Positions 44,184-56,834 of a stretch of 64,000 nt of DNA are shown here, in pieces. The stretch spans positions 1 to 64,000 of the forward strand of contig JALVOT010000018.1 in NCBI GenBank assembly GCA_027026255.1, in the 5' to 3' direction. The notes beneath the pieces were generated by a model, which saw only the letters and a program-made list of their open reading frames with translations, was not told the origin of the DNA and did not search any database. A program made the position numbers and the translations under genes. The first letter of the stretch is position 1; each line of letters begins with the position of its first letter. This stretch comes from Caldifarciminota bacterium. Its GTDB lineage: Bacteria > Hydrothermota > Tepidihabitantia > SM23-42.

Positions 44184-47100
44184 CTATTTTTTACCCAGTA
44201 TTCTTTTATAAAGACTGATTGTCTGGACGGATGGTGTAGTGTTAAATTCCTCCTTCAAACCCCTCTTGAGACGCTGAAACTGTCTTATGGCACTTATTCG
44301 ATTCCCCTGGTTGTAAAAACTTTCCATAATAATCTGACATGCCTGTTCATCATTAACATCAAAAGAAAGAAGCCGACGGGCAAAAAAGATTGCCTTCTGC
44401 CATTCAGCCCGCTCCATACACCTCTTTGCCAGCCAGTATAAGACCCTTCGGATCTTCTCTTTCAATTCAAACTGTTTATCAACAATGGGTCGGCTGTAGA
44501 ACTCAGGTAAAAAGTCTCCCCGGTATAAAGTCGTCGCCTTGAGTGCCCGGTCTTCAGCTGGATGTAGTTTTGCGCGTTGCTTTAGATACTGCCACTCTTT
44601 AACAAATGCTTCAAACTCCCAAAAATCCACCTGCAGCATATCTTTATTAAGAGAAAGAAAAGGACCCCTTTGCAGGATAATACCTTTACCAAGAATCTTA
44701 TTGAGTCTGGTCAAAAGAACCCGGAAATTCGCCTGCGATTTTCTCTTTGCCATATCCGGCCAGAGAAAAGATATTAAAATTTCTCGGGTAATACCACCAG
44801 GCCTCAGCAGCATCAGACCCAAAAGTTCCTGTGATTTTCTGGACTGCCATTCATTTCTGGCAATCTCCCCTATATCACCGGGCATTTTTACTGACAAACC
44901 GCCGAAGGTGGTTATCTCGATAGGATTTATTTGAAGTTTCTTCAATCTCTCACGAACAACCCGGCCGGCATTATTAAATTTTTTTGCCTCCAGTAACTTG
45001 TAAAGTTTAGAAATCCTTGGTGTCGCATTCATTTCAAAGAGCAGTTTTAATCCCTGTAAAAATATCGCCTCGCCATTTTCATCACCAAGCGCAAGTCCGA
45101 ATTTAATAAGCAAACCAGCGAGCAACATCTTTTCGCCATTTGATGACAGAATCTCCTTTGCCTTCTTGAAAAGTTTTAATGATTTATTATAATATCCTTT
45201 CTTTAAAAGCACCTGTGCCTTCTGGGCTGCAGCCTCCGCAAACCGTGTACTGAAATGGAGTCCTTTTACAAATCTTATTGCTCGTTCAGCAAATTTCAAT
45301 GCATCATCTATCTCGCCTTTCTTTAAATGAAGAGCACTTTTGTATAACATATAATCACAACGGGCGTTTATTTCCAGCTCCTTTTCATTAATTCCCTTCA
45401 GCAAATTTTCTGCCTCATCTATTTGATTCAACTCTAAAAATACACGCACCATATTCAACCGGGCAGTTAATTCCAGCCTTCTATTACATATCTTTTCCGC
45501 CTTAATCTTTGCCTTTTCAAAAAATTCTTTTGCGCGCCGGTATTCACCCTTAATCAAAAAACCGTAACCGATATAAAGTAAATCAACGCCGATAAGTTGC
45601 TCTTTCTCCATCAATTCTGCTTTTTTCAAAGATTCATAGAATCTTGCCAATGCAGAATCCATCTTACCCAATCTCGCTTCGACAATCCCTAATTGGGCAT
45701 AAGCGTCTCCGGTATACAAAAGAAGGTGGGCATTCTCTACCACCTTCACCGCCTCCAGTATAAATTCAAGTGCCTTATTTAAATCTCCCTTTGATAATGC
45801 AATCGATTTGAGATACAAAAATATCTTATATCGTGCTTCAGGCGCCTTGTCCTGAGGAATTTCGCCAATCAATCGCATAGCTTCGTCTTCGGCATTCTGG
45901 AGCAACCCCTTTCTGATTTGTAATAAACAATGTTCAGCCCTTAAGAGCCAGTAAAGGGACTCGCTCTTTTTCACCAATGTCATCGCCTTATTAAGATATT
46001 TTTCTGCCCCGGACAGATTTTGGAGTGCCAGATTTTCATGGAAAAGCATTCGGTAATGGATTCCCGCCTCTTTTTTCAATTTGTGTGCTTCACACACCTT
46101 TGCAAAATGCCCGATATCATCAATCTTTAAAACCCCTTTCTCCGACAACCAGTAAAGTTGGTTTGACAGGGATTTAATCTTCAGCGCCATTTTTTTGTTC
46201 ATCCCTTTTTTATCTACTATTCCTTGCGCAACCTTTAAATACCTCTTCGCCGATAGATATTGATAATTATCAAACAACCTCTCAGCAATATTAAATAGAT
46301 AAACAGCAAGCTCCCTGGTTTCTTCAGCAGGATGTAGGTCCTTTGTAAGGTGGAAGGCAATCTCTTCTTCAGCTGCATTATTTTTTTTCAAAATAACTGC
46401 AAGTTTTCTGTGCAGTTTACGACGCCGAGCAGGGTCTATTTTTTTATAAAACAGGGCACGAATCAAAGGGTGAATAAATAATGTCCTGGTCTCTTCAGAA
46501 TCCTTTATCAAACCTGAACTTGATAAAATATTAATCGACCTCAGAAACTGTTTTCTGGACTTCAATCCGCATAACTTATAAAGAATCGGAAGGCTGAATG
46601 ATTCGCCAATCACTGCCGCACTCTGCAGTAATTTCAATTCTGAATCTGATAATTTATGAAGACGATAACCGATTATGCTCTCAATAGTTTCGGAAACCGG
46701 AAAATCTTCATAATCGTCTTCAATCTGCCATTGATTTTTTGCCTCATCATAGAATATAATATTTTGATACATCAGGGTCTTAATGATTTCTTTAATAAAT
46801 AAAGGGTTCCCCCTTGTAATAGTAAAAAGCCAGCGTGCAAAAGCACCGGAAAGATTAGTGTTAAATATACTATTTAACACTAATCCGACTTCACCCGGGG
46901 AGAAATCAGAAAGCGTTATATACGAGACTGAATGTTCATTATTCAATTCATCTACAGCCATCTTTAACCCCTGATTATCCATCTGATCCCGCATTGTTGC
47001 AAGGATTAAAATTGATTTAGCTACGATTCTTCTAACAAGGTATTTCAATAATATAATTGAATCATCAGCCATCCACTGGATATCATCCAGCACAAGAACC

Positions 47101-47576
47101 AACGGTTTGGAAACCGACAGATTATCAAAAAAACCCTGTAAAGCGTAAAAAAATATGTGATTGTCAACCGGATAGTCTAATTCCTGTATCTCCAACGGAT
47201 AATACTCTTTTAATTTAGGTATAAGATGACTAAAATAAGAAGCAATTTCCGGTTTCAGAATCCTTCCGAACCATCCTGGTTGGTTTTTCTGTTTAAATAA
47301 ATAATCTTCAATCATCGGAACAAACGGCGAAAAAGGTCTTGCCTCATCCTTCAATGCCCGTCCGTAGAGAATGTAATAATCCCGGGAACCAATCTTTTCA
47401 ATAAATCGGTCAAGCAGTGAAGTCTTACCTACCCCTACCCCACCACGGATAATAATAAATCGACCATTATAATCCATAATATCCTTTACGGCGTCATGCA
47501 GCAGTTGTAATTCCCTTTCCCGATCGATGAATAATTCGTCGATATCTGTAGTGCTGAATAAAAATTCTTTTTTCAT
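44184..47576 (-). CDS. Large ATPase-TPR-BTAD transcriptional regulator
   Basis: A 1130-residue regulator. An N-terminal AAA/STAND-type ATPase (Walker A RGGVGVGKTSL at 44-54, Walker B LVLVLDDIQW) is followed by a long TPR-like helical region (about 400-870), then a winged-helix DNA-binding domain (about 880-975, FGGLSVKM...LLGLMLLRPGGITREILISFLWPD) and a bacterial transcriptional activation domain (about 985-1128, ALYRGDFLPEF-like ATTLYRGDFLPEF...NQGNRISAIRQFQRL). This is the reverse domain order of MalT-type LAL proteins and resembles SARP-type activators. It may control the adjacent secreted-protein genes or itself; direct repeats lie in its promoter. Confidence 0.9.
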   Translation of the reverse strand: MKKEFLFSTTDIDELFIDRERELQLLHDAVKDIMDYNGRFIIIRGGVGVGKTSLLDRFIEKIGSRDYYILYGRALKDEARPFSPFVPMIEDYLFKQKNQPGWFGRILKPEIASYFSHLIPKLKEYYPLEIQELDYPVDNHIFFYALQGFFDNLSVSKPLVLVLDDIQWMADDSIILLKYLVRRIVAKSILILATMRDQMDNQGLKMAVDELNNEHSVSYITLSDFSPGEVGLVLNSIFNTNLSGAFARWLFTITRGNPLFIKEIIKTLMYQNIIFYDEAKNQWQIEDDYEDFPVSETIESIIGYRLHKLSDSELKLLQSAAVIGESFSLPILYKLCGLKSRKQFLRSINILSSSGLIKDSEETRTLFIHPLIRALFYKKIDPARRRKLHRKLAVILKKNNAAEEEIAFHLTKDLHPAEETRELAVYLFNIAERLFDNYQYLSAKRYLKVAQGIVDKKGMNKKMALKIKSLSNQLYWLSEKGVLKIDDIGHFAKVCEAHKLKKEAGIHYRMLFHENLALQNLSGAEKYLNKAMTLVKKSESLYWLLRAEHCLLQIRKGLLQNAEDEAMRLIGEIPQDKAPEARYKIFLYLKSIALSKGDLNKALEFILEAVKVVENAHLLLYTGDAYAQLGIVEARLGKMDSALARFYESLKKAELMEKEQLIGVDLLYIGYGFLIKGEYRRAKEFFEKAKIKAEKICNRRLELTARLNMVRVFLELNQIDEAENLLKGINEKELEINARCDYMLYKSALHLKKGEIDDALKFAERAIRFVKGLHFSTRFAEAAAQKAQVLLKKGYYNKSLKLFKKAKEILSSNGEKMLLAGLLIKFGLALGDENGEAIFLQGLKLLFEMNATPRISKLYKLLEAKKFNNAGRVVRERLKKLQINPIEITTFGGLSVKMPGDIGEIARNEWQSRKSQELLGLMLLRPGGITREILISFLWPDMAKRKSQANFRVLLTRLNKILGKGIILQRGPFLSLNKDMLQVDFWEFEAFVKEWQYLKQRAKLHPAEDRALKATTLYRGDFLPEFYSRPIVDKQFELKEKIRRVLYWLAKRCMERAEWQKAIFFARRLLSFDVNDEQACQIIMESFYNQGNRISAIRQFQRLKRGLKEEFNTTPSVQTISLYKRILGKK

Positions 47577-49336: not shown

Positions 49337-49786
49337 ATGATGAGAAAAATAATATTAATATTACCTGGACTTCTATTCTTTATCTCCTGCAGCGCCGTAA
49401 AAGAAAGGCTGGCAATCAGACAGTGTAAATTCTTTTTTGTCTCGGTTAAACCGTATAACTTTACATACCACAATTTCAGTTTAGATTTCACCCTTAAGGG
49501 TGAAAATCCAAACCGGGTGGATGCAGTCCTTGACCGCTTCACCTATACCTTTTTCATCAATGAAACCGCAATCTTTTCCGGTAAGACCGGTGAAGGCTTA
49601 AGAATTCCCGCAAATAAATCAAAGAATTTTAAGACGACCCTAGTTCTTGAATATAATAAACTCGGTGATGCCTTGATTGAAGCGATACGATTAAAAAAGG
49701 CAGACTACAAAATCAAAGCAAGGGTATATATCAAAACAATCCTGGGTGATATCGGATATCCTGTAGAGATAAAGAACCCTCAATAA
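49337..49786 (+). CDS. LEA14-like lipoprotein
   Basis: 149 residues. Lipoprotein signal IILILPGLLFFISC, then one LEA type-2/WHy-like beta-sandwich: FSLDFTLKGENPNRVDAVLDRF, FFINETAIFSGKTGEG, IPANKSKNFKTTLVL. Related proteins occur in bacterial envelopes and in desiccation responses; precise role unknown. Confidence 0.75.
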   Translation: MMRKIILILPGLLFFISCSAVKERLAIRQCKFFFVSVKPYNFTYHNFSLDFTLKGENPNRVDAVLDRFTYTFFINETAIFSGKTGEGLRIPANKSKNFKTTLVLEYNKLGDALIEAIRLKKADYKIKARVYIKTILGDIGYPVEIKNPQ

Positions 49787-49788
49787 AT

Positions 49789-49828
49789 TGCACAATTTTT
49801 GTGCAGTCAATAACAATTTTTGTGCAGT
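49789..49828. repeat. 16-bp direct repeats with a 7-bp hairpin
   Basis: ACAATTTTTGTGCAGT occurs at 49792-49807 and 49813-49828, 21 bp apart (two helical turns). The first copy is part of TGCACAA-TTT-TTGTGCA. It precedes the 49902 gene cluster and could be an operator or a weak terminator of the gene before. Confidence 0.55.
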
Positions 49829-49901
49829 ATTAATAATTTCCTCTTGAAATTTCAATATTTTTCTCCGGCATATATTTTGCATAAAAATATTGTAGAGGTG
49901 A

Positions 49902-50675
49902 ATGATGAAAATCGAAAAAATCTGCTACTTTCTCTTAATCATCTTCGGCATCCTGGCCCTTACCGGATGCTGTTATAAAGGATGTGATGATGAACCACCG
50001 GCGGTTCCCCGGGGGCTAAGGTCAATCACCGGTGATGAAGAGGTCCTGCTCACCTGGTATGATAATACTGAACCCGACCTTGCCGGATATCGGATCTATC
50101 GAAGTCTCACACCTGAAGGAACTTACCATGCAATCGGAGAAACAAACCTTGACTATTTTCTCGATTATGGTCTGATAAATGGTCAAACTTACTACTACGC
50201 AATCACGGCGTTTGATGTTAATGGTAATGAGAGTGATCTATCCTATGAAATTATATATGATACACCAAGGCCCGAAGGATATAATGAAAGACTCTTTGAC
50301 TACTCAAAATATCCTGTATATGCCGGCTGGAATTTCAGTGAATATTCCGTTGTTCCCTATAACGAACCGGGCTGCGATTTCTATTATGGTTATGATAATG
50401 CAGAAGCCGCCTATTACTTCTTTGTCGGCAATCCGAATGGCCTGATTCAGGACTTTGGCTACACCGAATCACTTGATGATATAACCTATGCCCCGGAACA
50501 GGGTTGGTCGTCAACGGGAAAGGTCGAGGCGATTTTCGGTCATACCTATATCTTCTGGACCTGGGATAATCACTTCGCCAAGTTTCGGGTTACTGGATTT
50601 GGACCTGATTATGTAATTTTTGACTGGGCATATCAGGTTGATCCCGGCAACCCGGAACTCGTAATCAAACCATAA
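49902..50675 (+). CDS. Fibronectin type III lipoprotein
   Basis: 257 residues. Lipoprotein signal YFLLIIFGILALTGC, then one FN3 domain (about 35-115): PRGLRSITGDEEVLLTWYDN, LAGYRIYRS, YYYAITAFDVNGNES. The C-terminal 140 residues are aromatic-rich and unassigned. GAGGTG precedes; the second ATG at 49905 is equally possible. First gene of a five-gene envelope cluster. Confidence 0.8.
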   Translation: MMKIEKICYFLLIIFGILALTGCCYKGCDDEPPAVPRGLRSITGDEEVLLTWYDNTEPDLAGYRIYRSLTPEGTYHAIGETNLDYFLDYGLINGQTYYYAITAFDVNGNESDLSYEIIYDTPRPEGYNERLFDYSKYPVYAGWNFSEYSVVPYNEPGCDFYYGYDNAEAAYYFFVGNPNGLIQDFGYTESLDDITYAPEQGWSSTGKVEAIFGHTYIFWTWDNHFAKFRVTGFGPDYVIFDWAYQVDPGNPELVIKP

Positions 50676-50686
50676 CGAGGTGTGTG

Positions 50687-50974
50687 ATGGATGCTATATT
50701 TAACTTAAAGAATTCCCCTGATGTCGCACCGGAATCCGCCCTATACTCACCCCTGCGAAAATATCAACTCTTAGAGCGTTTAAAGAATATCGTCATTGAA
50801 ATAAACCGGGGCAGGATAACAATCGACACGAACGAATTGATACCGAAGATGCTCGCTGTAGGCAGGTCAAGGGGAACACCGGATTTTGAAAGGGCGGTCA
50901 AAGAACTCCTTGCTGTCCTTGCACACCGAATTCCATCTTCAGAATATAATGAAGAATTTGAAAGTTTTATATAA
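50687..50974 (+). CDS. Small helical protein of unknown function
   Basis: 95 residues, soluble, no signal. The segment LLERLKNIVIEINRGRITID followed by TNELIPKML is faintly like the anti-sigma-28 factor FlgM, but no flagellar gene is present, so this is a weak suggestion. The ORF track begins with the GTG at 50684. Lies 11 nt after the FN3 lipoprotein gene, with GAGGTG upstream. Confidence 0.6.
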   Translation: MDAIFNLKNSPDVAPESALYSPLRKYQLLERLKNIVIEINRGRITIDTNELIPKMLAVGRSRGTPDFERAVKELLAVLAHRIPSSEYNEEFESFI

Positions 50975-50989
50975 AAAAAGGAGGCTGCA

Positions 50990-51916
50990 ATGAAAAAACT
51001 TATTTTATTATCACTCGCAGCCATCCCGTTATTCGCATTCGGCGTAAACTTCATCATTGCCGATTACGAATATTACGGTGATGAGTATTACTGCGATGAA
51101 TACTGGTGTGACTGTCCCTATGACGGATACTGGGTCTATTATCCGGATGGTTGTTATTGTGTCCATTATGTCTGGTGGTATCCCTGGTGGTGGGATTGGT
51201 ATTGGCAGCGATGCCACTGGTGTCATCACTTCTGCTGGGATTTCTTTTACAGTGGATTCTATATAGTCTGGTATGAGGACGGCTATTGGTGGTGGAGACC
51301 AAGATATGGCAGAGCAGTAAGACACCGACTTCCCTATACTTATAGAGAAATCAGATATCGGGCAAAGAAATATGGTATTATTCTACCCAGAAAGCCTCCC
51401 CGTAAAATAAATGTGCCCTATAAGGAGAACAAGATAAAGAGATTGATTCAGAAAAAGGACCCTGAATTATTTAGCCGGGTGGTAAAAGAGCACAAAAGCG
51501 GTAACTTAGAAAAAATGCGTAAAGTATATGATGCAAAGATCAGAAAAAATACGACACTGCGGCCAAGGCATTATCTGGAATCTTCGAACCGGACAAAAAT
51601 CAGAGACTCGAACCATAATATTCTTCCCGGCCATTCCACAGAAGATATTAGAACTCCGCACCGAAAATATAAAAACTCAGAAAATATTGAAAAAGAAGGC
51701 GGAATTCATATAATAAAAAAGAAGAAGAAAAAGAGCAATGATATTGATTACAAAAGGTCTGAAAAAGAAAGCGGTTATCATTTCAAGAAGATTGAAAGAC
51801 ATTCAATAAAAAAATCGAACCATCGAACTCAACCAAAAATAAGGCTGGATAAGGATGATACACCGGGACGAAGGTATATTCATAAAAAGGTTCATCCAGA
51901 AGGTCAAAAGAGGTAA
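50990..51916 (+). CDS. Secreted Trp/Tyr/Cys-rich protein with basic tail
   Basis: 308 residues, two-part. After the signal peptide MKKLILLSLAAIPLFAFG comes about 85 residues with some 15 Trp, 8 Cys and many Tyr and Asp (YWCDCPYDGYW, HYVWWYPWWWDWYWQRCHWC). From residue 110 the protein is very basic, with Lys/Arg/His runs (HIIKKKKKKS) and likely disorder. No family recognised. AAAGGAGG precedes the ATG. Third gene of the envelope cluster. The paired Cys and His (CHWCHHFC) could bind metal or form disulfides; metal, redox or mineral/surface binding are guesses. Confidence 0.75.
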   Translation: MKKLILLSLAAIPLFAFGVNFIIADYEYYGDEYYCDEYWCDCPYDGYWVYYPDGCYCVHYVWWYPWWWDWYWQRCHWCHHFCWDFFYSGFYIVWYEDGYWWWRPRYGRAVRHRLPYTYREIRYRAKKYGIILPRKPPRKINVPYKENKIKRLIQKKDPELFSRVVKEHKSGNLEKMRKVYDAKIRKNTTLRPRHYLESSNRTKIRDSNHNILPGHSTEDIRTPHRKYKNSENIEKEGGIHIIKKKKKKSNDIDYKRSEKESGYHFKKIERHSIKKSNHRTQPKIRLDKDDTPGRRYIHKKVHPEGQKR

Positions 51917-51918
51917 TT

Positions 51919-52527
51919 ATGTCTGCAATAATCTTATGCACACTTATTGGTCTACATCTTAACCTTTGGCTGAACCGCGAGGATGGTATATACTATCCAT
52001 CAGAGAATCTTAAGGTCTTTTTCCGGGTGGATGAAGACTGTTTTGTTACAGTCTATAATATAGAAAGAGGGGGGAAGATAAAGAAACTCTTCCCCCCGAA
52101 GGGTCATGACGGCTGGGTTTCAGCCGGCAAACGTTATCAATTACCTCCTGCTGATGCCGATTATGATTATGTAATCAGTGGGCCACCCGGGATTGAGACA
52201 ATTATTGCCTGTGCATCTACTGAGCGTCAACCCGCATTTACAGATGAAGGTCCTGATATTGTTGAATCAACCGCTTATATCGAAATAAAAGAGCCCGAAC
52301 CGGCAAGGCTCATTATTGTATCCCGTCCCATTTATGCCCGCATCTATATCTCAAAAGATGATTTTGAAGATGAAGAGTATGCAGGCTGCACGCCGCGTGA
52401 GATTGTCATAAGACCGGGTTCATATTGGGTGACGATAAGAAAACCAGGTTTTCACCCGCTCCAAAGAAAAATATGGCTTGAACCCGGTGCGATAAAAAAG
52501 GTTATGGTAAGGCTTATACTATATTGA
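51919..52527 (+). CDS. DUF4384-PEGA envelope protein
   Basis: 202 residues. A short hydrophobic start is followed by a DUF4384-like domain (about 15-90: LNLWLNREDGIYYPSENLKV, FFRVDEDCFVTVYNI, KLFPP) and a C-terminal PEGA domain (about 130-202: ARLIIVSRPIYARIYISKDD, GCTPREIVIRPGSYWVTIRK, PGFHPLQR). Both domains are typical of bacterial surface proteins. Starts 2 nt after the aromatic-rich gene's stop, so they are cotranscribed. Confidence 0.82.
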   Translation: MSAIILCTLIGLHLNLWLNREDGIYYPSENLKVFFRVDEDCFVTVYNIERGGKIKKLFPPKGHDGWVSAGKRYQLPPADADYDYVISGPPGIETIIACASTERQPAFTDEGPDIVESTAYIEIKEPEPARLIIVSRPIYARIYISKDDFEDEEYAGCTPREIVIRPGSYWVTIRKPGFHPLQRKIWLEPGAIKKVMVRLILY

Positions 52528-52561
52528 CATTATGTTTAACTTTATTATAATAAATCATACT

Positions 52562-52861
52562 ATGAAGAAAATCCTGATAACACTCATCTTTGTTGGATTT
52601 CTTTTTGGTGTGGAACAGGTCCCCAGGCATCGAACAAATAAAAAGACCAGGCAGATTGAAAAGACGAAAAAGTCAACAAGACTCAAAAAAATAAAGGTCA
52701 AAGAGGACCATTTTCTGGATGCCGATTCAAATGCAGTCAATGACCAGCGTGAAGATGATTATTTAAAGATAAAGAAAATGAATTCCAAATTTTGGGACCT
52801 ATTTCAAAAAATATTCGGCAACAAATTAAAAAAATCCAGGAAGAAAAAAAGGCACAAATAG
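52562..52861 (+). CDS. Small exported basic protein
   Basis: 99 residues. Signal peptide MKKILITLIFVGFLFG, then a Lys/Arg-rich chain (RTNKKTRQIEKTKKSTRLKK) with a few acidic residues and a C-terminal KKSRKKKRHK. The ATG at 52562 is preferred to the ORF-track start at 52532 because it opens the signal peptide. Composition echoes the basic tail of the aromatic-rich protein two genes upstream. Confidence 0.6.
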   Translation: MKKILITLIFVGFLFGVEQVPRHRTNKKTRQIEKTKKSTRLKKIKVKEDHFLDADSNAVNDQREDDYLKIKKMNSKFWDLFQKIFGNKLKKSRKKKRHK

Positions 52862-52962: not shown

Positions 52963-54930
52963 GTGCATAATCTATTAATCTTCATCCTCCTCAATGCCCT
53001 GTCATTGGTCCCGGCAAAAGACCCATTGGGCAACGATATCTCGGGTGCTGAACAGGTCGGCACAGTCGGTTCAATATTAAAAAAGCCTATTGTGGTTCGG
53101 GTACTGGACAGCCTGGGCAATCCCCGGGCGAATGTCACCGTAAAGTTTTCAGTAATAGAAGAACCCAGGGAGAATTTTCTTAAAAAAAGACCGGCCCGTT
53201 TAGAACCTGAAGAAACCAGGACTGATAAAGATGGATATGCAACGAGTAGATTCTGTTTCGGCGGAACAAGTGGAAATTATTATATACTCATCAAAGCAGA
53301 ATCACAGAGTTTGATATTCAAAGAGATTGCCCTGGATCGAAACTGGCTTCTTTTCTTTTTCTTTTCACTATTCGGTGGACTGGGCATATTCCTTTTCGGA
53401 CTGAACTACGGAAGCAAGGGTCTTATAAGGGCAGCCGGGGCAAAGATGCGCGACCTCCTTTTCAGTCTCACAAAAAATCGCCTTATGGCCCTGGTTATCG
53501 GCATCGTTGTAACGGTTATTCTCGGTTCCAGTACGGCAAGTTCAATCCTTTTGGTACGCTTTGTCTCCGGTGGTATCATACTTTTAGAGCAGGCACTCGG
53601 TGTGCTTCTGGGTATAAATATTGGAACAACCATAACCGTGCAGATTATCGCCTTCAGAATCTTAGATTACGCAATTCTGATTGTGGGCATTGGATTCTTC
53701 CTGATGCATTTTTTCCCACGATACCGGAATGTCGGCCAGGCGATATTCGGCCTTGGTCTCCTCTTCTTTTCTCTGAAATTAATGTCTGCCGCAACATCAA
53801 ATTTAAGATACCTGCCTCTCTTCCATACAATAATTGCCGGGCTATCAAGATATCCCTTGCTTGCAATCATCATTGCATCACTCATCACATTTTTATTACG
53901 CTCGAGTGCCGCAACCATCGGCATCATTTTAATCCTGACATTTGATTCCCTGATTGAACTTCACCAGGCGGTGCCTCTGATACTGGGAGCAAATCTGGGC
54001 ACCACATTCACCGCACTCATATCGGCAAATTCCACTGATGGCCGTCGGGTCGCATTCGGCCATTTTCTCTTCAACCTGCTGGCAATTGCAGTGCTCTTCC
54101 CGTTTCTCAACTACATCCCGAATATCGTAAAAAGTCTTGGCGGTGATATCTCCCGACAGATCGCAAATTTTCACACTATGTTCAACCTCTTTTCAGCCGC
54201 GCTCTTTCTCCCATTAATTCATCTCTTTGCCAGACTCTTGGACAGCATAGTAAAAAGAACAAAAACAGGAAGTCCCTGGACCCATCATTTAGACCCGGCA
54301 TTTCTTGATACACCGGCAATCGCCCTCGGCCAGGCAACCAGGGAAATACTTTTTATGGCCGACATTGTGAATCGTATGCTTGAAGACAGTATAAAAGTCT
54401 TTAAAGAACGCGACCGCAATCTTTTGGAAAAAGTTGTAAAAACCGACGACGAAGTGGACGAATTCGAGGAAAAGATCACCCCCTATCTTACCAGGATTAG
54501 CGAAGGCGAGATGGATAGTAAATTATCCCATTATCATCATGCCCTGCTCAATACAGTCAATGAGATTGAACATATCGGTGATGTTGTTTCAAAAAACCTT
54601 ATGTCCTATGCAAAAAAACAGATTGACACCGGATTTTTATTCTCTGAAGAAGGCTTTAACCAGATTGAAAATCTGCATCGGTTTGCATGTGAAACACTCC
54701 GCACCGCAATAAATGCCTTAGCAACCCAGGATAAAAATTTGGCACAAACGGCGGTGGCCCGGAAAAAAGAGGGATATATATTAGCAAAGAAGTATAGTGA
54801 ATTACATTTAGAAAGACTGAAAAAAGGTATGAAACAGAGTCTGGAAACAAGCACCATCCACCTTGATATCATCAGTGACCTTGAACGAATAAACTTCCAT
54901 GCCGCAGAGATAGGCGCCGGCATATTATGA
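52963..54930 (+). CDS. Na/Pi-cotransporter-like protein with N-terminal Ig-like domain and PhoU-like tail
   Basis: 655 residues. A signal or first helix is followed by an extracytoplasmic Ig/invasin-like domain (about 20-125: VRVLDSLGNPRANVTVKFSV, TDKDGYATSRF). The membrane part (about 130-440) has two NptA-type repeats, each with GTT (INIGTTITVQ, ANLGTTFTAL). The usual QSSSA signatures are changed to LGSSTASS and LRSSAAT, both lacking the Gln. A PhoU-like helical domain ends the protein. GTG start, no ribosome site. The next gene is a histidine kinase overlapping by 4 nt. Phosphate transport versus sensing is open. Confidence 0.85.
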   Translation: MHNLLIFILLNALSLVPAKDPLGNDISGAEQVGTVGSILKKPIVVRVLDSLGNPRANVTVKFSVIEEPRENFLKKRPARLEPEETRTDKDGYATSRFCFGGTSGNYYILIKAESQSLIFKEIALDRNWLLFFFFSLFGGLGIFLFGLNYGSKGLIRAAGAKMRDLLFSLTKNRLMALVIGIVVTVILGSSTASSILLVRFVSGGIILLEQALGVLLGINIGTTITVQIIAFRILDYAILIVGIGFFLMHFFPRYRNVGQAIFGLGLLFFSLKLMSAATSNLRYLPLFHTIIAGLSRYPLLAIIIASLITFLLRSSAATIGIILILTFDSLIELHQAVPLILGANLGTTFTALISANSTDGRRVAFGHFLFNLLAIAVLFPFLNYIPNIVKSLGGDISRQIANFHTMFNLFSAALFLPLIHLFARLLDSIVKRTKTGSPWTHHLDPAFLDTPAIALGQATREILFMADIVNRMLEDSIKVFKERDRNLLEKVVKTDDEVDEFEEKITPYLTRISEGEMDSKLSHYHHALLNTVNEIEHIGDVVSKNLMSYAKKQIDTGFLFSEEGFNQIENLHRFACETLRTAINALATQDKNLAQTAVARKKEGYILAKKYSELHLERLKKGMKQSLETSTIHLDIISDLERINFHAAEIGAGIL

Positions 54931-56834
54931 GGCAGAAAACCTATTTTTTAATCATAATAACACTTCTTTTGATTTTGGGAATATTCGCAATCCTTGGTAT
55001 CGTAAGCAGTCGCCGCATTATGCTCAACCTCATTACTGAAGAAGCACACTCCTTCTTATCGATGGCGGTAATGATTCAGGAAAATGCGATATTCGGTGAA
55101 GGCAGATTAGAAGATGAAATAATTGATAAACTGCTTGACATCTGTGAATACTTAGAAGATACACAGTTGAATCAGAACACCATTGACAGAATTGTAAAAA
55201 ACTTCGAACTCAATTCAATTATTGTCTTCGACCGTAAAACAAAGAGAATCATTGCAAAATCCGGACAGCCCATAGAAATTTCAAACCGAATCTTCGATCT
55301 TAAAGAACCGGTATATTACGAATACTTCAAGGTTGGTCATAAGAAAGAAATGCTCTTTATTTACCAGATACCGGAAAGGATTTATCAGATTGAACTTCCT
55401 GCCGATGTGATTGAAGACTTCAGAAAAGAATTTGGATTGAATAAAATAATAAATCAGATAATGACCAATCCGATGGTAAAATATCTTGTGCTTCAGGATC
55501 AAAAAGGCATTATCTTTGCCACCCCCAATATTCATACAGTCACCAGCATTACAGACGACACGCTATTGAATAAGGTCATTAAGGACGGTAATGAACAGAG
55601 CCGAATTATCAAATTCAATGATAAAAATATTCTTGAATTGATAAGACCATTCGGCACAAAGGGTAAAAACATCGGCCTCTTCAGACTGGGAATCAGTTTG
55701 GAGGGATATTACAGACATATGAGAGAAACCGAACGACAATTGATACTGTTATTTGCTATTTTACTCGTCACCGGATTTATATTATTCTTCTTCTTGATTA
55801 AATATCAGTCCTTCTTGGGGCTGAAAGAAATCTTTGACAAAACCCTGGGTGCTGTGGAGGATGGGGTATTGATGGTCGACAAAAAAGGTTCAATCACCGG
55901 CGTTAACCCCAGTTTCTGTAGCGTAACAAGTTTTGACGAAAAAGCACTCCTTGGTCAGAACTACTTCTCTTTATTTAAGAACGACCCATTATCAATCAAA
56001 AAGGTATTAGAACAGGGCACCAAGATTGTCGATGAACATTCAATATTTGGAAGGAATATTCAATATGCCACATACCCATTATTTGACAATCAAAATCGAA
56101 TCATTGGTTCCATCTCGGTGATGAGAGATGTCACCAGATTAAGGGCATTTGAAAAAGAGCGCGAAGAAGCCGAAAGGTTCGTATTCCTGGGTAATCTGGT
56201 TGCCAACTTCGCCCATGAAATAAAAAATCCCTTAAACGGCCTTTCCATTGCAACCCAGCGATTAATCAGGGAATTCCCTTCAAAAAATAGCGAGTATCAA
56301 CAGTTGACCTCAACCATAAAAAAAGAGATTGAGTTCTTGAATAAAACCCTCAATGACTTTCTGACCTTAGCCCGTCCCGGGTTAAAAGAGAAAAAGCAAT
56401 TTAATCTCAGTCAGCTTCTTATCCAGACCCTTGATCTGATTGGGGAGCAGATTATGAATATGGACATTGAATTAAAAAAGGAGATTGTAAAAGGTCTGGA
56501 AATTTCAGGAAACGAAGAGGATTTTAGACGTGCTATATTAAATATCCTGCTCAATGCAATAGATGCCCTTTCCATTATTACAGAAAAGAAAAAACTTATT
56601 GTGCGCTTACGAAAAACAGATGGAGAAATTTTATTGGAAATTTCTGACAATGGGGTGGGTATGGAACCTGAAGAGATTGAGAAGATATTTACCCCATATT
56701 TTACAACCAAACAAGGAGGAACCGGTCTTGGACTCTATATTGCACAAAAGATTATTCGCGACCATAAAGGCAGGATTGAAGTCAAAAGCAAAAAGGGTCA
56801 GGGCACTTCATTTTTTATAACTCTGTCCCAATAA
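54927..56834 (+). CDS. Membrane sensor histidine kinase with PAS domain
   Basis: 635 residues. Helix 1 at 5-28, periplasmic sensor region about 30-265, helix 2 about 270-292 (LILLFAILLVTGFILFFFLI), PAS about 305-400 (GVLMVDKKGSITGVNPSF), HisKA with NFAHEIKNPLNGLS (His about 430), N-box LLNAIDAL, G-boxes DNGVGM and GGTGLGLYIAQKI. It overlaps the transporter gene by 4 nt; no response regulator follows, so its partner lies elsewhere. It may sense phosphate through the transporter (inference). Confidence 0.93.
   Translation: MRQKTYFLIIITLLLILGIFAILGIVSSRRIMLNLITEEAHSFLSMAVMIQENAIFGEGRLEDEIIDKLLDICEYLEDTQLNQNTIDRIVKNFELNSIIVFDRKTKRIIAKSGQPIEISNRIFDLKEPVYYEYFKVGHKKEMLFIYQIPERIYQIELPADVIEDFRKEFGLNKIINQIMTNPMVKYLVLQDQKGIIFATPNIHTVTSITDDTLLNKVIKDGNEQSRIIKFNDKNILELIRPFGTKGKNIGLFRLGISLEGYYRHMRETERQLILLFAILLVTGFILFFFLIKYQSFLGLKEIFDKTLGAVEDGVLMVDKKGSITGVNPSFCSVTSFDEKALLGQNYFSLFKNDPLSIKKVLEQGTKIVDEHSIFGRNIQYATYPLFDNQNRIIGSISVMRDVTRLRAFEKEREEAERFVFLGNLVANFAHEIKNPLNGLSIATQRLIREFPSKNSEYQQLTSTIKKEIEFLNKTLNDFLTLARPGLKEKKQFNLSQLLIQTLDLIGEQIMNMDIELKKEIVKGLEISGNEEDFRRAILNILLNAIDALSIITEKKKLIVRLRKTDGEILLEISDNGVGMEPEEIEKIFTPYFTTKQGGTGLGLYIAQKIIRDHKGRIEVKSKKGQGTSFFITLSQ

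Follow-up and report, generated by a model that had tools for sequence, protein, structure and literature searches.

Four genes of the window (the whole stretch of 64,000 nucleotides analysed here, part of a 222-kb contig of a 2.1-Mb WOR-3 (Stahlbacteria) genome) form a strict module: within one uncultured WOR-3 order, a genome carries either all four or none. They encode an FN3 lipoprotein, an aromatic-rich protein, a DUF4384-PEGA protein and a small last protein carrying a calcium-type loop. Chances are judged about even that the four products build a regulated multi-protein envelope structure of this order. An envelope assembly is proposed because export-type N-termini, a lipid-anchor-like Cys and surface-type domains are found together with joint gain and loss of the genes; export and lipidation themselves are predicted, as read by eye from the sequence.

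The initial annotation had described five close genes on one strand, and all five ORFs were recovered in an ORF check, on the plus strand and with small gaps between them (Table 1). For the small helical gene, ATG 50687 is the most likely start codon. For the last gene, ATG 52562 is a more likely start than 52532; its small, Lys-rich product is predicted to be secreted. The gene order FN3-aromatic-PEGA-loop protein was kept in 22/22 relatives, with the small helical gene interposed in some, and in most of them the PEGA gene starts 2 nt past the aromatic stop codon. Judged by omega, purifying selection acts most strongly on the FN3 protein and on the core of the aromatic protein.

Table 1. Genes, protein segments and regulatory elements of the module and its linked neighbour in the window.
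Feature	Position	Strand	Remarks
LEA_2-domain lipoprotein, linked neighbour, outside core	49337..49786	+	Pfam LEA_2 E 9.7e-13
Enhancer-like palindrome 1, TGCACAATTTTTGTGCA	49789..49805	+	similar site 75-77 bp upstream of -24 element in nearly all genomes
Enhancer-like site 2, degenerate	49810..49826	+	55-57 bp upstream of -24 element in nearly all genomes
Sigma-54-type promoter CGGCAT-N5-TTGC (-24/-12), putative	49866..49880	+	23/23 genomes
FN3 lipoprotein (predicted), 257 aa, highly conserved C-terminal domain	49902..50675	+	65-73% identity across two families
Small helical protein, optional, no evident signal peptide	50687..50974	+	window + 5/22 relatives
Aromatic-rich secreted protein (predicted), 308 aa, new family	50990..51916	+	23 members
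Trp/Tyr/Cys block of aromatic protein, residues 18-102	51041..51295	+	15 W, 18 Y, 8 C
Variable hydrophilic Lys-rich tail of aromatic protein, residues 206-308	51605..51913	+	net +14 in window
DUF4384-PEGA secreted protein (predicted), 202 aa	51919..52527	+	two domains in 23/23 members
Sigma-70 promoter TTGACA-16-TATAAT of last gene, probable	52524..52551	+	12/12 or 11/12 match in 23/23
Small secreted Lys-rich protein (predicted) with one calcium-type loop, 99 aa	52562..52861	+	co-occurs 23/23
Calcium-type loop DADSNAVNDQRE	52718..52753	+	D1, N8, D9, R11, E12 invariant, 23 genomes

A protein search of 61 genomes returned the aromatic protein in 23 of them, with one copy per genome. In profile searches of 65 class genomes, the aromatic protein, the full-length FN3 protein, the DUF4384-PEGA protein and the last small protein each occurred in the identical 23 genomes, all belonging to one order (27 genomes); these carriers are mutually related and mostly metagenome-assembled, and the co-occurrence counts are not phylogenetically independent. 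The same searches found the four core genes jointly missing from the other 4/27 order genomes and from 38 further class genomes. Three of the module-less order genomes are 96-97% complete, one of these being a single contig, and the fourth is 53% complete. The small helical gene is optional, with 6/23 carriers. By their record names, the relatives are metagenome-assembled genomes labelled candidate division WOR-3 or Candidatus Stahlbacteria. When the search for the aromatic protein was extended to the phylum (147 genomes), one weak extra match was obtained, confined to the first 31 positions (signal-peptide region). When 84,980 species genomes were scanned by pattern, a method that reaches fairly close relatives, matches came only from records labelled WOR-3, Stahlbacteria or TA06. 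No relative was found in viral contigs, and a viral origin was rejected on this basis. The FN3, aromatic and PEGA genes, earlier suspected of staying together, did so in 23/23 carriers, and the homologues of the aromatic protein looked for in close relatives were present in these 23 genomes.

On profile evidence, the aromatic protein is a new family with no known-family match among Pfam, NCBIfam and PDB. Profile searches gave no sequence relative in any of the three, and a PDB fold search with the aromatic core gave no match (best E 0.56), in keeping with the earlier view that the block is unlike common families. Over their full length, the 23 members are 41-51% identical to the window protein. 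The composition noted before, about 15 Trp and 8 Cys in about 85 residues, proved exact for residues 18-102, which also hold 18 Tyr. GYYC, PWWWD and GFYxVWY are near-invariant motifs of this block; invariant positions of the protein are W39, W48, P52, G54, Y56, C57, W62, P65-W66-W67-W68-D69, W72, W77, F85, G89, Y91, V93-W94-Y95, R103, R105-Y106-G107, L132-P133, K135 and P137-R138. Omega was ~0.02-0.12 in the aromatic core where measurable and 0.16-0.33 in the tail, some pairs being saturated. In the AlphaFold model, pLDDT was 25-51 over residues 18-77 (most of the Trp-rich block), and residues ~78-177 were fair to good, with block means of 67-91.

Conservation of the Cys/Trp pattern at the codon level, as put forward in the initial annotation, held for the domain and not for the cysteines, five of the eight being lineage-specific. 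C57 is present in 23/23 members, C75 in 21/23 and C78 in 16/23. One disulfide, from C57 to C75 or C78, is suggested, because C57 is accompanied by at least one of C75 and C78 in every member and three members have C57 and C75 only.

The basic tail, previously put at 200 residues, was reduced to ~103 residues (206-308), since residues ~103-205 make up a conserved, partly folded region. The tail is poorly conserved in sequence, and it is not uniformly basic: its net charge is +14 in the window, falls anywhere between -7 and +33 in relatives, and is positive in 22/23 members. This variation argues against a strict polycation role and weakens the idea of a uniform basic tail as anionic-polymer binder. 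Binding of anionic polymer or nucleic acid by the tail, as proposed earlier, is therefore tentative at best, because net charge is not conserved.

The FN3 lipoprotein, recognized as such in the initial annotation, is the most conserved protein of the module (75% mean column identity). An FN3 domain was assigned by profile (3mpc, E 3e-6) and by fold (Foldseek FN3 matches down to E 7.6e-6); the Pfam fn3 model itself reached E 0.054 only, in one member. Cys23 is invariant (23/23), follows a hydrophobic N-terminal stretch and is the predicted lipid-anchor Cys. Class-wide matches beyond the 23 orthologues span essentially the FN3 part alone. For the third core gene, the DUF4384-PEGA reading was confirmed by Pfam matches above the gathering scores (DUF4384: E 1.3e-16, 60.8 vs 27 bits; PEGA: E 5.3e-7, 29.9 vs 20.8 bits). 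A literature search returned no paper naming DUF4384 together with PEGA.

The last protein begins like a signal peptide and further contains a variable stretch rich in Lys and a calcium-type loop of 12 residues, which is conserved over the 23 genomes (consensus DxDSNGVNDQRE, broader pattern DxDxNxVNDxRE). Ligands at EF-hand positions 1, 3, 5 and 12 fit, D1 and E12 being invariant with D/N at 3 and N/D at 5. When tested as an EF-hand, the loop lacked a hydrophobic residue at position 8 (Asn8 in all) and gave no Pfam EF-hand match; when tested as TSP_3, it was single, not tandem, and gave no Pfam TSP_3 match. By eye, it looks most like a single thrombospondin type-3 repeat, and it may bind calcium.

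A sigma-54-type -24/-12 element, mostly TGGCAC-N5-TTGC, lies 36-40 nt ahead of the FN3 start codon in 23/23 genomes, with GG-N10-GC at a fixed position in each. Only 49 such matches occur in 675 kb of scanned strands, the 23 module promoters included, and the element matches the published sigma-54 consensus tGGcacg / tTGCt (PMC4641369). The window genome carries rpoN (RpoN domain match) and 10 strong Sigma54_activat genes. Most genomes have two 17-bp sites like TGCACAA-N3-TTGTGCA, of which the downstream copy is as a rule the more degenerate, at 20-21 bp from each other and thus on one helix face; in two relatives, the scan recovered one good enhancer-like site only. Window site 1 is the only perfect copy of the core GCACAA-N3-TTGTGC in its own genome, and site scans of that genome gave no other convincing target of the enhancer. 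By their likeness to the NtrC consensus, these palindromes may be NtrC-like enhancer sites; a literature search on NtrC sites returned nothing usable. The module operon is thus putatively controlled from a sigma-54-type promoter and the NtrC-like sites ahead of it.

For the last gene, a separate housekeeping promoter is probable; it has a 16-bp spacer and matches the consensus at 12/12 in 20 genomes and at 11/12 in 3. Consensus sigma-70 promoters appear to be common in these genomes, and the 12/12 match is not unusual in itself because 56 exact copies with a 16-bp spacer occur in 675 kb of scanned strands. Given a sigma-70-type promoter of its own, the level of the loop protein need not follow the operon. 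Both promoters and the calcium-type loop were missed in the initial annotation.

A small regulon probably exists, because the same enhancer-promoter layout also precedes genes for a barrel, an alpha-crystallin-like protein, a DUF6982 protein and a 205-aa secreted protein in relatives. At six loci, the product is a ~206-aa outer-membrane-like barrel with a terminal Phe; in some of these barrels, the mature N-terminus carries a VPR/VPK-like motif akin to AVxxVPR of the loop protein. At six others, the sigma-54 layout is followed by a gene for a ~90-aa alpha-crystallin-like protein without Pfam match, in two cases with the DUF6982 gene in between. The barrel was rejected as a fifth component, as it occurs in 13/27 order genomes and is absent from the window genome.

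The LEA_2 lipoprotein gene lies upstream of the module on the same strand in 16/22 relatives, at variable distance. Downstream in the window, the genes for a PhoU-domain Na/Pi transporter and a histidine-kinase-like protein overlap each other (52963-56834), without an adjacent response regulator among the ORFs listed; transporter and kinase were ruled out as partners, being beside the module in 0/22 relatives. In 18/22 relatives, the module faces an opposite-strand pair encoding geranylgeranyl-reductase-like and RarA-like ATPase proteins, and in 14/22, UppS-like and CdsA-like genes are also near (names by eye). The window genome differs in neighbourhood, because the geranylgeranyl-reductase-like and RarA-like neighbours were not seen there. 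Elsewhere in the window (44184-47576), a 1130-aa regulator-like protein resembles an ATPase at its N-terminus and a SARP protein at its C-terminus (by eye).

In the envelope structure proposed, a sigma-54 activator acting on the two tandem palindromes would jointly induce the genes for the FN3 lipoprotein, the aromatic protein and the DUF4384-PEGA protein. As the base of the structure, the FN3 protein would be anchored in the membrane via its lipidated Cys. The aromatic protein would pack through its Trp/Tyr block, held by the one disulfide, and its flexible hydrophilic, usually Lys-rich tail would extend from it; the PEGA protein and the calcium-type-loop protein, the latter expressed separately from the sigma-70 promoter, would be partners. 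Inner and outer membranes are present in a WOR-3 isolate (PMC12285271), and in Desulfovibrio, functions at the cell exterior are over-represented among sigma-54 operons (PMC4641369). A more far-reaching version seems to us possible rather than likely: that the aromatic protein stands for a new class of secreted structural proteins, made of the Trp/Tyr block, a single disulfide and a disordered arm rich in Lys, and that it forms, jointly with the FN3 protein as base, the PEGA protein as partner and the calcium-type-loop protein, a surface layer or appendage which is inducible and restricted to one WOR-3 order.

The products could instead be a surface polymer binder or adhesive of the cation-pi type, in which the aromatic block stacks on sugars or with itself, while anionic LPS, capsule or extracellular DNA is bound by the Lys-rich tails, so that a matrix becomes cross-linked. 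The Tyr/Trp plus Lys composition, the mostly positive tails and Lys-rich extensions in 2/4 module proteins fit this, as do FN3 and PEGA domains, which are frequent in cell-surface proteins. However, the tail varies in charge and sequence, and the aromatic core is conserved far beyond expectation for a promiscuous glue, and we consider the adhesive somewhat unlikely. A stress-response module, whose products protect or remodel the envelope once envelope or nutrient stress triggers an NtrC-type activator, is unlikely; the layout shared with the barrel, alpha-crystallin-like and DUF6982 genes speaks for it, but the barrel shows no tie to the module and the alpha-crystallin-like resemblance has no Pfam match behind it.

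Very doubtful is a role in metal or haem handling with the Cys/His cluster RCHWCHHF and C57 as ligands. Besides C57 and C75, H76 (21/23) and H79 (22/23) are widely conserved and position 78 is Cys or His in 21/23, but the CxxCH string seen in the window protein is broken in 9/23 members (C75S in 2; C78 to H, V or A in 7), which rules out the haem-c reading of CHWCH, and profile searches of the aromatic protein gave no cytochrome or metallochaperone match. As for a chance cluster of low-complexity ORFs, the skewed composition is all that would suggest it, and it was ruled out by the conservation of sequence, order and promoters and the low omega across 23 genomes. Overall, the interpretation in the initial annotation was partly supported.

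With the regulated envelope structure as preferred reading, a module centred on a new protein family is now defined for the poorly known WOR-3 envelope. The unusually well conserved enhancer and promoter give a handle on when the module is used, and since it is present whole or not at all, its partners can be tested as a complex.

Compared with known systems, the FN3 protein resembles FN3-domain lipoproteins (PF00041) in having a Cys behind a hydrophobic N-terminal stretch and then a single FN3 domain, whereas the window family adds the highly conserved C-terminal domain. With DUF4384 (PF14326) and PEGA (PF08308) proteins, the third core protein shares both domains above curated cut-offs; here its gene always adjoins the aromatic gene. 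The loop has the 12-residue DxDxNGVxDxxE spacing of thrombospondin type-3 repeats and EF-hand loops, but occurs once, in a short Lys-rich protein, with Asn at position 8. C-type cytochromes have in common with the window aromatic protein the CHWCH (CxxCH) string, which its orthologues do not uniformly conserve. With sigma-54 (RpoN) promoters served by NtrC-type enhancers, the regulatory region shares TGGCAC-N5-TTGC, the TGCAC-N7-GTGCA palindrome and the tandem arrangement of sites.
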